In this document: piece by piece, positions 32,693-40,882 of the stretch
How the letters are laid out: each line of letters opens with the position of its first letter
Position numbering within the stretch: position 1 is the stretch's first letter
Assembly (NCBI GenBank): GCA_947474495.1
Contig: CANJIM010000003.1
Location: 1-64,000, forward strand
DNA: 64,000 nt
Source: Rhodospirillaceae bacterium
GTDB lineage: Bacteria > Pseudomonadota > Alphaproteobacteria > SMXQ01
Reading direction: 5' to 3'
Program-made: the position numbers and the translations under genes
Notes under the pieces: model-generated
Databases searched by the model: none
Seen by the model: only the letters and a program-made list of their open reading frames with translations
Told to the model about the DNA's origin: nothing

Positions 32693-32776
<84 letters not shown>

Positions 32777-32851: not shown

Positions 32852-34315
32852 ATGCAGGTTACTGAAACGGCGAGCGAAGGGCTCAAGCGGGAATTTCTCA
32901 TCCGCATCCCCGCCTCGGACATCGAGACGAAGCTCAATACCCGCCTCCAGGAAATGAGCACGAAGGTGAAGCAGCCCGGCTTCCGTCCGGGCAAGGTGCC
33001 GATGGCCCTGCTGAAGAAGCAGTACGGTCCGTCGCTCATGGGCGAAATCCTCGAGCTCGCTGTCAGCGAAGGCACGCGCGACGCGCTCAACGACAAGGGC
33101 CTGCGTCCGGCCATGCAGCCGAAGATCGAGATCAAGTCGTTCGAAGAGGGCGGCGATCTGGAATATGCCGTTGCCGTCGAGCTGATCCCGGAGATCAAGC
33201 CGTTGGCCTTCGGCGACATTAAAGTCGAGAAGCCGACCGTTGCGATCGACGACAAGGCGATCGACGAAGCCGCGCAGCGTCTCCTGGAAAACAACCGCAT
33301 CTTCGAGAAGACCGACGATGCCAGCCGCGCCGCGACGAAGGAAGACCAGTTGCTGGTCGACTTCATCGGCCGCGTCGGCGGCACGGCGTTCGATGGCGGC
33401 ACCGCCAAGGACTTCGAAGTCGCCATGGATTCGGCAGGCTTCATTCCCGGCTTCATTGAGCAGATGCACGGTTCCAAGGCCGGCGACAAGCTGACCGTGA
33501 AGGTGAAGTTCCCCGACGAGTACGGCAATGCCGATCTCGCGGGCAAGGACGCCGAGTTCGAAGTCGACGTGAAGGAAGTGCGCCTGCCCAAGGCCGCGAC
33601 GCTCGATGACGCCTTCGCCAAGAAGGTCGGCTTTGAGAGCCTCGCCGAGCTGAAGAAGGGCCTCAAGGAGCGCATGGAGCAGGAGTATGCTCAAGTCACG
33701 CGCATGCGCCTGAAGCGCAACCTGCTCGACAAGCTCGCCGACAAATGCGACTTCGAAATCCCCACCGGCTTGGTCGACAGCGAGTTCGCCGGCATTTGGC
33801 AGCAGATGACGGGCCAGGCACCGGAGCATAACGCCGAGACCTGCGATGATCCGACTCACGATCACAGCCATGCGGGCCACGATCACGCGGGTCATGATCA
33901 CGGCGATCACGAAGGCCACGACCATGGCCCGGCGACCGACGTGCTCAAGGATAAGACGCCGGAAGAGATCGAGAAGCTGAAGGCGGAGTACCGCACCATC
34001 GCCGAGCGCCGCGTGAAGCTCGGGCTGCTGCTGTCGGAGACCGGCCGCAGCAACAAGATCGAAATCTCGAAGGACGACCTGAATCGCGCGCTGCTCAACG
34101 AAGCTCGCCGGTTCCCCGGTCAAGAGCGGATGGTATTCGAGTTCTATCAGAAGAACCCGGACGCCCTCGAGCAGCTCCGCGCCCCTGTCTTCGAGGACAA
34201 AGTCATCGACTACATCCTCGAACTGGCCAAAGTCGAGGAGAAGACGGTGACCGCCGAAGAGTTGATGCGCGACCCGGACGACGAGAAAGACGACGTCGCC
34301 GGCGCCAAGAAGTAA
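32852..34315 (+). CDS. tig: Trigger factor with a His-rich insertion
   Basis: A 487-residue ribosome-associated chaperone and peptidyl-prolyl isomerase. It has the N-terminal ribosome-binding domain with the signature PGFRPGKVPMALLKKQYG (about 42-60), the FKBP-type domain (about 150-245, DQLLVDFIGRVGGTAFDGG) and the C-terminal chaperone arms. Trigger factors are usually 430-450 residues. The excess here is an insertion in the C-terminal domain, where residues 336-358 contain ten histidines in HDH, GHDH and GDH repeats flanked by acidic residues. Such a tract can bind Ni, Zn or Co. It leads the tig-clpP-clpX-lon cluster. Family assignment is certain; the role of the insert is unknown. Confidence 0.97.
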   Translation: MQVTETASEGLKREFLIRIPASDIETKLNTRLQEMSTKVKQPGFRPGKVPMALLKKQYGPSLMGEILELAVSEGTRDALNDKGLRPAMQPKIEIKSFEEGGDLEYAVAVELIPEIKPLAFGDIKVEKPTVAIDDKAIDEAAQRLLENNRIFEKTDDASRAATKEDQLLVDFIGRVGGTAFDGGTAKDFEVAMDSAGFIPGFIEQMHGSKAGDKLTVKVKFPDEYGNADLAGKDAEFEVDVKEVRLPKAATLDDAFAKKVGFESLAELKKGLKERMEQEYAQVTRMRLKRNLLDKLADKCDFEIPTGLVDSEFAGIWQQMTGQAPEHNAETCDDPTHDHSHAGHDHAGHDHGDHEGHDHGPATDVLKDKTPEEIEKLKAEYRTIAERRVKLGLLLSETGRSNKIEISKDDLNRALLNEARRFPGQERMVFEFYQKNPDALEQLRAPVFEDKVIDYILELAKVEEKTVTAEELMRDPDDEKDDVAGAKK

Positions 34316-34439: not shown

Positions 34440-35078
34440 ATGCGAGATCCGATCGATACCTACATGAACTATCTCGTTCCCATGGTGGTCGAGCAGACCA
34501 ACCGCGGCGAGCGCTCCTACGACATTTACTCGCGCCTTCTCAAAGAGCGCATCATCTTCATGGTCGGCCCGGTCAATGACGCGGTGTCGAGCGTGATCTG
34601 CGCCCAGCTGCTGTTCCTCGAAGCCGAGAATCCGAACAAGGACATCTCGTACTACATCAACTCGCCGGGTGGCGTGGTCACGTCCGGCCTCGCGATCTAC
34701 GACACGATGCAGTACATCCGCCCCGACGTGGCGACGATCTGCATCGGCCAAGCGGCGTCGATGGGCTCGCTGTTGCTCGCAGCTGGCGCCGACGGCAAGC
34801 GCTTCGCGCTGCCGAATGCGCGTATCATGGTGCATCAGCCCTCGGGCGGCGCGCAGGGCCAAGCGACCGACATCGAAATTCAAGCGCGCGAAATTCTGTC
34901 GCTGCGGTCGCGCCTGAATGGCATCTACGTGAAGCACACCAAGCAGCCTCTCGATGTGATCGAGAAGGCGATGGAGCGCGATAAGTTCATGAATCCGGAA
35001 GAGGCGCAGGCTTTCGGCCTCATCGACGAAGTGTTCGTGAAGCGTCCGGCGAGCGAAAAAGTCGAGATGACCCGCTAA
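34440..35078 (+). CDS. clpP: ATP-dependent Clp protease proteolytic subunit
   Basis: A 212-residue serine protease that assembles into a double-heptamer barrel and degrades substrates delivered by ClpX or ClpA. The catalytic triad is Ser107 ([11 protein letters not shown]), His132 (MVHQPSGG) and Asp181 ([11 protein letters not shown]). The start [34 protein letters not shown] agrees with alphaproteobacterial ClpP, which have a short propeptide. It lies 124 bp after tig and 425 bp before clpX; the long gap suggests separate control of clpX. Confidence 0.97.
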
Positions 35079-35503: not shown

Positions 35504-36778
35504 ATGAGCAAGTCCAGCGGCAGCGGCGAATCGCGTAACACCCTCTACTGTTCTTTCTGCGGGAAGAGCCAGCATGAGGTGCGCAAGCTCATCGCCGGGC
35601 CGACCGTGTTCATTTGCGACGAGTGCGTTGAGCTTTGCATGGACATCATCCGTGAAGAGCACAAAACGACGCTGGTCCGTTCGCAGGATGGCGTGCCGTC
35701 CCCGCGCGACATCTGCACCGTGCTCGACGACTATGTCATCGGTCAGGTGCATGCCAAACGCGTTCTCTCGGTCGCGGTGCACAACCATTACAAGCGTCTC
35801 GCCCATGGCCAGAAGGCCAATGACGTCGAGCTCGCCAAGTCGAACATTCTGCTGATCGGTCCGACCGGCTGCGGCAAGACGCTGCTCGCGCAGACTCTGG
35901 CGCGCATCCTCGACGTGCCCTTCACGATGGCCGATGCGACGACGCTGACCGAAGCCGGCTACGTCGGCGAGGACGTTGAGAACATCATTCTGAAGCTCCT
36001 GCAGTCCGCCGACTACAACGTCGAGCGCGCGCAGCGCGGCATCGTCTACATCGACGAAGTCGACAAGATCAGCCGCAAGTCCGACAACCCGTCGATCACG
36101 CGCGACGTCTCGGGCGAAGGCGTGCAGCAGGCGCTGCTCAAGATCATGGAAGGCACCGTGGCCTCCGTGCCGCCGCAGGGTGGCCGCAAACATCCGCAGC
36201 AGGAATTCCTGCAGGTCGACACGACGAACATCCTCTTCATCTGCGGCGGCGCTTTCGCCGGCCTGGAGAAGATCATCTCGGCGCGCGGCCGCGGCACCTC
36301 GATCGGCTTCGGCGCTGACGTGCGCGCCCCGGAAGACCGCCAGACCGGCGAGCTTCTGCGTGAAGTCGAGCCGGAAGATTTGCTGAAGTTCGGCCTGATC
36401 CCGGAGTTCGTCGGCCGCCTGCCGGTGGTCGCGACGCTCGACGATCTCGACGAAGAAGCTTTGGTCGACATTTTGACCGTTCCGAAGAACGCCCTGGTGA
36501 AGCAGTACCAGCGTCTCTACGAGATGGAGAATGTCCGCCTCGAGTTCTCGGAAGACGCCTTGAAATCGGTCGCCCGCAAGGCGATCCAACGCAAGACCGG
36601 CGCACGCGGTCTACGTTCGATCATGGAGACCATTCTCCTGGAATCGATGTTCGAGCTGCCGGGTTTGGAAGGCGTCGAAGAGATCGTCATCAACAAAGAG
36701 GTGGTCGAAGGCCGTGCGAAGCCACTCTACATTTACTCGGACCGCCGCGAAGAAACCGGCGCTGGCGCCAGCGCTTAA
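35504..36778 (+). CDS. clpX: ATP-dependent Clp protease ATP-binding subunit ClpX
   Basis: A 424-residue AAA+ unfoldase that recognises tagged substrates and threads them into ClpP. The N-terminal zinc-binding domain has Cys16, Cys19, Cys38 and Cys41 (CSFC...CDEC). The AAA+ module has Walker A GPTGCGKT (119-126), Walker B in [10 protein letters not shown], the pore-loop region (YVGEDVE) and the conserved [13 protein letters not shown]-like block ([15 protein letters not shown]). Length and ends are typical. In Caulobacter ClpXP degrades CtrA, and a CtrA-type box occurs in this window, so the cell-cycle circuit is likely present. Confidence 0.97.
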
Positions 36779-36833: not shown

Positions 36834-37015
36834 CGGACGCCGATCATGAAGTTGTCCCCCACTTTTCATATCGGGAACGCCGGCAAGGCCGCGCGACCCT
36901 TGAATCCTGCGGGCTTCAACGCCACTTTGAATGAAATCCGGGATGTCGGCCTGTGCCATGTTGGGCAGGCCTGCCCCTTTCCCAAGCGCCGCCCTGTCGC
37001 GGTGGAAGGAAGAGC

Positions 37016-39421
<2,406 letters not shown>

Positions 39422-40020: not shown

Positions 40021-40096
40021 GGGCGGTTAGCTCAGCTGGTAGAGCACCACGTTTACACCGTGGCTGTCGGCGGTTCGAACCCGTCACCGCCTACCA
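40021..40096 (+). tRNA. tRNA-Val(TAC)
   Basis: A 76-nt cloverleaf with anticodon stem CCACG/CGTGG, loop TTTACAC (anticodon TAC), T-arm GGCGGTTCGAACCCGTC and encoded CCA. The first acceptor pair is G-T, slightly unusual. Confidence 0.95.
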
Positions 40097-40144
40097 ACCC
40101 GACCGAATGCGGCATTAGACCGCGGGGGCAGAGGGAGACGCGAA

Positions 40145-40882
40145 ATGGCCTATACCAGTTGGCGCGGCGTCGTCGGACTGATCAAGCCGACCATGCGGCC
40201 GGGCGGCCTTGAAGAGCTCATCCGCATGCTGCCGGATGGCGTTTGTACCTTGCCGTTGTTCCTCGACATCCGGCGCGGCACCCAGGACGAGTTCAAGGAG
40301 GTGATGGTCCATTACGAGACGGCCATCGCCAAGCTCGCCGAGCAGAAGGTCGATCTCATCCATCCCGAGGGAGCGCCGCCTTTCATGGTGCGCGGCTTCA
40401 AAGGCGAGCGAAAGCTGCTCGACAAGTGGGAGAAACAATACAAGACGCCGCTCTTCACCTCGGGCACCAACCATATCGCCGCCCTCAAGGCACTCGGGAT
40501 CAAGAAGTTCGTCGGCGCGACTTACTTCAGCGGCGACATCAACGAGACCTTTGCCGCCTATTTCCGTGATGCCGGCTTTACCGTGCTCGGCATGGAGGGG
40601 ATCGACGTGCCGTTCGATCAGGTCGGCAGCCTGTCGCCTCATGAGGTCTACGTCCATATCAAGAAGGCCTTCCTCAAGCAGCCCAAGGCCGAGGCGATCT
40701 ATATGCTGGGCACCGGCTGGCGCGTGCTCGAGATGATCGAGACGCTGGAACAGGATCTCGGCGTGCCGGTGATCCATCCGGTTCCGGCACGTTGCTGGGA
40801 AATCCAAGCCCGGTTGCATATTCGCCAACCGGTGCAGGGCTATGGCGCTTTGATCCGCAATCTGCCGCCGCTGCCCGGCTAA
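40145..40882 (+). CDS. Asp/Glu racemase-fold protein (maleate isomerase/arylmalonate decarboxylase-like)
   Basis: A 245-residue protein of the Asp/Glu/hydantoin racemase superfamily, in the branch containing maleate cis-trans isomerase and arylmalonate decarboxylase. It starts WRGVVGLIKPTMRPGGLEEL and has the TSGTNHIAALKALGIKKFVGATYFSGDINETFAAYFRDAGF block typical of that branch. The two positions that hold catalytic cysteines in relatives are not Cys: near residues 75-79 it reads EGAPP and near 188-193 LGTGWR. Only Cys34 and Cys217 exist, and they do not align with active sites. It may be a divergent lyase or a non-catalytic binding protein. It is monocistronic between two tRNA genes. Confidence 0.8.
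   Translation: MAYTSWRGVVGLIKPTMRPGGLEELIRMLPDGVCTLPLFLDIRRGTQDEFKEVMVHYETAIAKLAEQKVDLIHPEGAPPFMVRGFKGERKLLDKWEKQYKTPLFTSGTNHIAALKALGIKKFVGATYFSGDINETFAAYFRDAGFTVLGMEGIDVPFDQVGSLSPHEVYVHIKKAFLKQPKAEAIYMLGTGWRVLEMIETLEQDLGVPVIHPVPARCWEIQARLHIRQPVQGYGALIRNLPPLPG

Follow-up and report, generated by a model that had tools for sequence, protein, structure and literature searches.

The locus analysed here raises the question of why a trigger factor, a ribosome-associated chaperone, should carry a dense cluster of histidines in its chaperone domain, and whether that cluster may serve to hold metal. The gene lies in a window of 64,000 nucleotides (positions 1 to 64,000 of contig CANJIM010000003.1, from a Rhodospirillaceae bacterium), together with the following features:

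32693..32773, + strand: tRNA gene upstream of tig (Rfam tRNA, 58.2 bits)
32852..34315, + strand: tig, trigger factor of 487 aa, stop codon included (coding 32852-34312; TIGR00115, Pfam and PDB matches)
32978..33001, + strand: ribosome-binding signature GFRPGKVP, residues 43-50, read from the translation
34440..35078, + strand: clpP (Pfam CLP_protease)
35504..36778, + strand: clpX (Pfam zf-C4_ClpX and AAA_2)
36953..39421, + strand: lon (Pfam Lon_C and LON_substr_bdg)

By profile models, signature and fold, the encoded protein belongs to the trigger factor family; it is predicted to bind the ribosome and to act as a chaperone. It scores 380.8 bits against the TIGR00115 tig model of NCBIfam (cut-off 180.2), and its Pfam domains are all above cut-off (Trigger_N 128.8, Trigger_C 115.4 and FKBP_C 54.3 bits). 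The E. coli trigger factor (1w26/2vrh) is its best match in the PDB both by sequence and by fold, and the AlphaFold2 model (mean pLDDT 91.6, pTM 0.81) displays the three-domain fold with two arms. Within the GFRxGxxP core of the signature, G43, F44, R45, G47 and P50 are invariant across 68 aligned trigger factors. The trigger factor gene was found once in the genome, which is 96% complete. The order tig-clpP-clpX-lon is usual in Proteobacteria (PMC7804408); apart from the tract, the window protein is an ordinary trigger factor in the normal gene order. Further downstream, an open frame (40043-40879) that encodes an arylmalonate-decarboxylase-like domain overlaps at its 5′ end a tRNA gene (40021-40093), so that its true start must be further in.

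What sets the protein apart lies between two helices of the C-terminal domain:

33857..33925, + strand: His/Asp-rich tract, residues 336-358, 10 His in 23 (sequence, shuffles)
33812..33958, + strand: disordered loop, residues 321-369, between helices 305-320 and 370-400 (AlphaFold2)

The tract reads HDHSHAGHDHAGHDHGDHEGHDH, and translation of 33857-33925 confirms the ten histidines that an earlier note on this DNA had counted in it. The whole protein contains 12 His, 11 of which fall within the segment 308-378, and 20,000 composition shuffles never placed more than 6 His in any 23-residue stretch; outside the segment, His averages 0.85% in trigger factors. The insert aligns between residues 317 and 336 of the E. 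coli protein, and from the known E. coli structure 1w26 we take the loop to be placed at the tip of arm 1. The helix-loop-helix arrangement with low loop pLDDT (about 50-63 in the blocks covering 321-360) indicates a long, disordered and exposed loop. The earlier note had assigned the tract to the C-terminal chaperone domain and had called for modelling of the fold: the alignment to E. coli trigger factor and the model both bear out this position, the tract being housed in the disordered loop 321-369. It had also likened the composition to the His-rich tails of metallochaperones, which agrees with known metal-binding tails, since the tract is disordered, H/D-rich, of low complexity and HxH-spaced, all features of His-rich metal-binding tracts as a class.

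The loop of a typical alphaproteobacterial trigger factor has a median length of 13 residues and is acidic (E 18%, D 14%), with 1.3% His; tract-bearing loops have a median of 39 residues, with 30% His and 26% Asp. That ordinary loops are already acidic would suit a reading of the tract as a pH-sensitive or charge-tuning disordered spacer, which would adjust the solubility of the arm or its ribosome contacts and bind metal only incidentally, and mixtures of His and Asp do shift in charge around neutral pH. Such a spacer would, however, account poorly for the strong HxH pattern (272 of 359 His in tract-bearing loops have another His at +2, and 232 of the 359 are followed by Asp) or for a composition common to metal transporters and chaperones, and we regard it as very improbable.

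Is the tract a peculiarity of one assembly? The segment was read in 158 alphaproteobacterial trigger factors, of which 34 (one genome being counted twice, as L002 and L056) carry 4 or more His within 23 residues and 102 have no His in it at all. The statement of the earlier note that ordinary trigger factors are devoid of such a tract therefore stands. Alignment of Tig proteins across relatives, which it had also proposed, places the tract in most of the window's own family (9 of 11 genomes) and again in unrelated families; counterparts of the His/Asp loop are present in 14 of the 88 alphaproteobacterial families inspected, a fifteenth label in the table being a name-coded duplicate of f1. In genus g2 of the same family the tract is absent from both G006 and G002, the latter judged from match coordinates. 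In the class sample, 26 of the 145 rows read bear the tract and 363 genomes had a match, a prevalence to be taken with caution, as the matches retrieved first were the full-length ones. No tract was found outside Alphaproteobacteria when a profile of tract-bearing loops was run against 398 Pseudomonadota genomes, the top listed score from beyond the class being 45 bits, as compared with 157-178 for tract-bearing loops. The earlier note would have given up its reading had the insert been a length-variable low-complexity repeat of only one strain; the single strain is contradicted by the family distribution, and the variability in length is indeed seen. Across tract-bearing trigger factors the loop segments span 32-76 residues with 4-25 His, a variation in length and His number so high that no fixed coordination site is conserved.

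A tandem-repeat artefact of one strain was ruled out by a 94% identical copy in the same genus, by more distant copies in the family and by recurrence elsewhere; TRF recovers merely 2.1 copies of a 15-base unit. The nearest public MAG (L056, CAMAVH010000006.1) encodes a trigger factor 93-94% identical to that of the window. Its record is titled 'Rhizobium sp. Q54', a name that looks doubtful, given a genome of about 3 Mb and a trigger factor that clusters with family f1 and away from the bulk of the sample. In another genome (L153, G046), a run of N breaks the trigger factor coding sequence exactly at the loop, directly before DHDHDH, and is likely an assembly gap or a masked stretch at a tract.

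The distribution does not follow a single descent. On trees inferred without the loop columns, the state of the tract changes 16-17 times in a large quick tree, with 12 changes forced by well-supported branches, and 11 times (10-12 in bootstraps) in a careful 53-row tree, with 6 forced; one clade of tract-bearing rows, that is, a single origin, is rejected (p-AU 2.1e-7). Between them, the trees call for no fewer than 6-12 gains or losses. These counts do not separate gains from losses; since the tract is infrequent, gains are likelier to be the majority, and the likelier history would be one of mainly gained tracts with losses such as those in genera g2 and g39.

The chief rival to a metal buffer starts from this mobility. 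The loop at the tip of arm 1 may simply accept insertions, with HD-prone proteomes spreading tracts into it and metal playing no part in vivo. Indeed, loop length varies (8 loops of at least 25 residues are not His-rich, against 26 that are), the sister genus g2 does without the tract and shows no obvious compensation, and the genomic load of HD tracts is somewhat higher in tract-bearing genomes than in others (3.0 vs 1.8 matches per Mb, p = 0.02, although independent pairs give no significant difference), a mild association that leaves room for a genome-wide tendency. Against such tolerated expansion, the same H/D composition appeared repeatedly and independently, and genomes whose HD loads are among the heaviest, such as G303 and G043, nevertheless have an ordinary trigger factor loop. 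Nor do the codons bear a slippage signature: HD units are written with CAC/CAT and GAC/GAT in mixed order, and 84 of 302 neighbouring units have identical codons, as compared with 83 ± 9.5 under shuffled codon order. Recent repeat slippage is ruled out by this agreement, and in the absence of its trace the pattern is kept at the protein level. The C-terminal tails of trigger factors, which are as disordered and likewise long and variable, are almost never His-rich (22 His per 5637 residues in total, most from one genome), so that the tract is specific to the arm loop rather than a property of any disordered part. Together with the mostly metal-related company of the tract described below, these observations leave tolerated expansion an unlikely reading, albeit one with a real chance of being right.

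In two further trigger factors the arm loop is ordinary and the metal-like motif is found in the C-terminal tail instead: that of L126 (G330) holds 13 His in 23 residues, HDHHHHDHDHDHDHDHHDHDHGD, and that of L150 (G022) contains HVHGPDCGHDHD.

What, then, do similar tracts do elsewhere in the genome? The coding pattern HDH-(0-30 nt)-HDH yields 41 matches, vs 0 for the reversed control, and this pattern and a second one, HxHxHxH, together identified 12 other genes with an in-frame tract:

CobW (metal-handling)
CbiX (metal-handling)
NicO nickel/cobalt transporter (metal-handling)
two cation-efflux proteins (metal-handling)
ABC ATPase with a His-rich end, which looks like ZnuC
nitrile hydratase alpha, L197:1198-1908 (G000:C46), with a His-rich N-terminus and the sequence CTLCSC, the cobalt-type motif
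EutA, L201:3-1061 (G000:C49), with a His-rich C-terminus
ribonucleotide reductase C-terminus, L196:1-1170 (G000:C28), which looks class II and has a His-rich stretch
RNase E, L202:898-2499 (G000:C8), named by reading the sequence
cytochrome oxidase subunit I (CtaD), also named by reading the sequence
GBBH-like_N (DUF971-like) protein, L192:819-1571 (G000:C4)

Eleven of the 12 have a tie to metal or cobalamin, as transporters or chaperones of metal, as metalloproteins or as cobalamin-linked proteins. This list agrees with a survey that covered over 1500 proteomes of prokaryotes and phages: there, low-complexity regions rich in His and Asp were enriched among nickel, metal-transport and cobalt/cobalamin proteins (PMC6821194). 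The company of metal-related genes may hint at a link to metal for the trigger factor tract as well, by an argument of guilt by composition. Several cobalt- or B12-linked proteins (ribonucleotide reductase, nitrile hydratase alpha and EutA) have such a tract in common. In RNase E, another RNA/translation-linked protein of this genome, it sits in a long acidic disordered insertion, HDHVAQGDHGHDHGDHDHGDH. The longest tract found in the genome is the His-rich N-terminal region of about 80 residues that precedes the domain of the GBBH-like_N protein.

The earlier note had put nickel among the candidate metals, and a nickel metallochaperone replacing SlyD or HypB in delivery to hydrogenase or urease would fit the resemblance of the tract to SlyD and UreE tails in composition (PMC7055735). 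The rest of the evidence does not favour this proposal. The window's genome has no match to HypB or UreG (no TIGR00073 match) and none to SlyD (E. coli SlyD query, E <= 0.001), and the G3E GTPase domain of HypB/UreG is lacking from the window trigger factor in the Pfam search. HypB cleared its cut-off in none of the 27 tract-bearing genomes screened. Over 79 genomes, the tract was associated neither with UreG-like matches scoring at least about 55 bits (15/27 vs 20/52, p = 0.16) nor with SlyD (3/27 vs 8/52, p = 0.74), and association with UreG or SlyD was likewise lacking on independent tree pairs. These results make nickel delivery unlikely as a general role, and for the window protein we give it little credence indeed. 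Targeted delivery to metalloproteins, which the earlier note had also raised, is likewise conjectural. Since several of the other tract proteins are cobalt- or cobalamin-linked and one looks zinc-related, there is a weak lean to zinc or cobalt, which would be the most likely metals of the loop; nickel or copper may also be bound.

We consider it moderately probable that the window protein is a ribosome-associated chaperone doubling as a divalent-metal buffer of high capacity and moderate affinity. The tip loop of arm 1 in a working trigger factor would have been turned into a disordered, His/Asp-rich and putatively metal-binding tract; each copy of this very abundant cytosolic protein would contribute 11 His, which could then bind divalent metal reversibly and buffer it close to the ribosome and nascent chains. 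Excess ions would be kept off unfolded protein, and the loop would act as a loose local metal store. For comparison, the tail of SlyD, which is similar in composition, takes up as many as 7 Ni(II) with a Kd below 1.8 uM (PMC7055735), and E. coli trigger factor is present at about 50 uM (PMC7804408). At E. coli-like levels, the loop would amount to ~0.5 mM His ligand near emerging chains. If it binds metal, the one ribosome-bound chaperone of the cell would be a large metal-binding pool, which would bear on whether contact between new proteins and metal at the ribosome is controlled. It is tempting to speculate further that this chaperone was repeatedly made metal-holding in separate alphaproteobacterial lineages, where it would shield nascent chains or load them with metal on emergence and the handling of metal would start at the ribosome exit; so broad a claim is rather unlikely to hold.

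Alternatively, metal bound by the loop might act as a switch rather than as a buffered store, altering trigger factor dimerisation, the hold of the arm tips on clients, or hand-over to ClpX. The modelled position of the loop at the tip of arm 1 would be apt for this, E. coli ClpX minus its zinc domain contacts the PPIase-domain tip, the hinge and arms 1 and 2 of trigger factor (PMC7804408), and Ni(II) reversibly inhibits the isomerase activity of SlyD (PMC7055735). A switch sits uneasily with a geometry and ligand spacing that are not conserved across lineages, and appears distinctly improbable. With regard to the preferred reading, that of a metal-buffering chaperone, the repeated and loop-specific occurrence of the tract provides natural pairs with and without it, such as genera g1 and g2 of one family or the members of f35.

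The His/Asp-tract trigger factor is a real and recurrent variant of a well-known chaperone, and apparently an undescribed one, text searches of the open-access literature having returned no paper on a His-rich trigger factor. Among the known systems nearest to it, E. coli trigger factor (1w26) has in common with it the domain order, the ribosome signature, the FKBP isomerase domain, the cradle arms and the tig-clpP-clpX-lon neighbourhood; the E. coli protein, however, has fewer than 20 residues between 317 and 336, where the window protein has a disordered His/Asp-rich loop of about 50. The His-rich CobW, CbiX, NicO and cation-efflux proteins of the same genome display the same H/D/G-rich composition, but they are dedicated metal proteins. 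SlyD, like the window protein, combines a folding helper with an FKBP domain and a disordered tract rich in metal ligands, and its tail varies between species (PMC7055735); that tail is C-terminal, contains Cys and is tied to hydrogenase, whereas the tract described here is an internal loop. The window protein itself is not a SlyD, the tract being internal and the protein a trigger factor (TIGR00115). H. pylori HspA, a GroES with a His/Cys-rich extension, likewise unites a general chaperone with a nickel-sequestering tract (PMC7840056), although the latter is C-terminal and confined to one lineage of the chaperonin family. Mycobacterial GroEL1, a paralogue of a general chaperone, has a Cu(II)-binding tail, HDHHHGHAH (PMC10170517); it is a paralogue with a diverged role, whereas the tract of the window sits on the only trigger factor gene found in the genome. 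HspA (PMC7840056) and GroEL1 (PMC10170517) establish that general chaperones do acquire such tracts, and the loop of the window trigger factor is best read as a probable functional analogue of the tails of SlyD, HspA and GroEL1.
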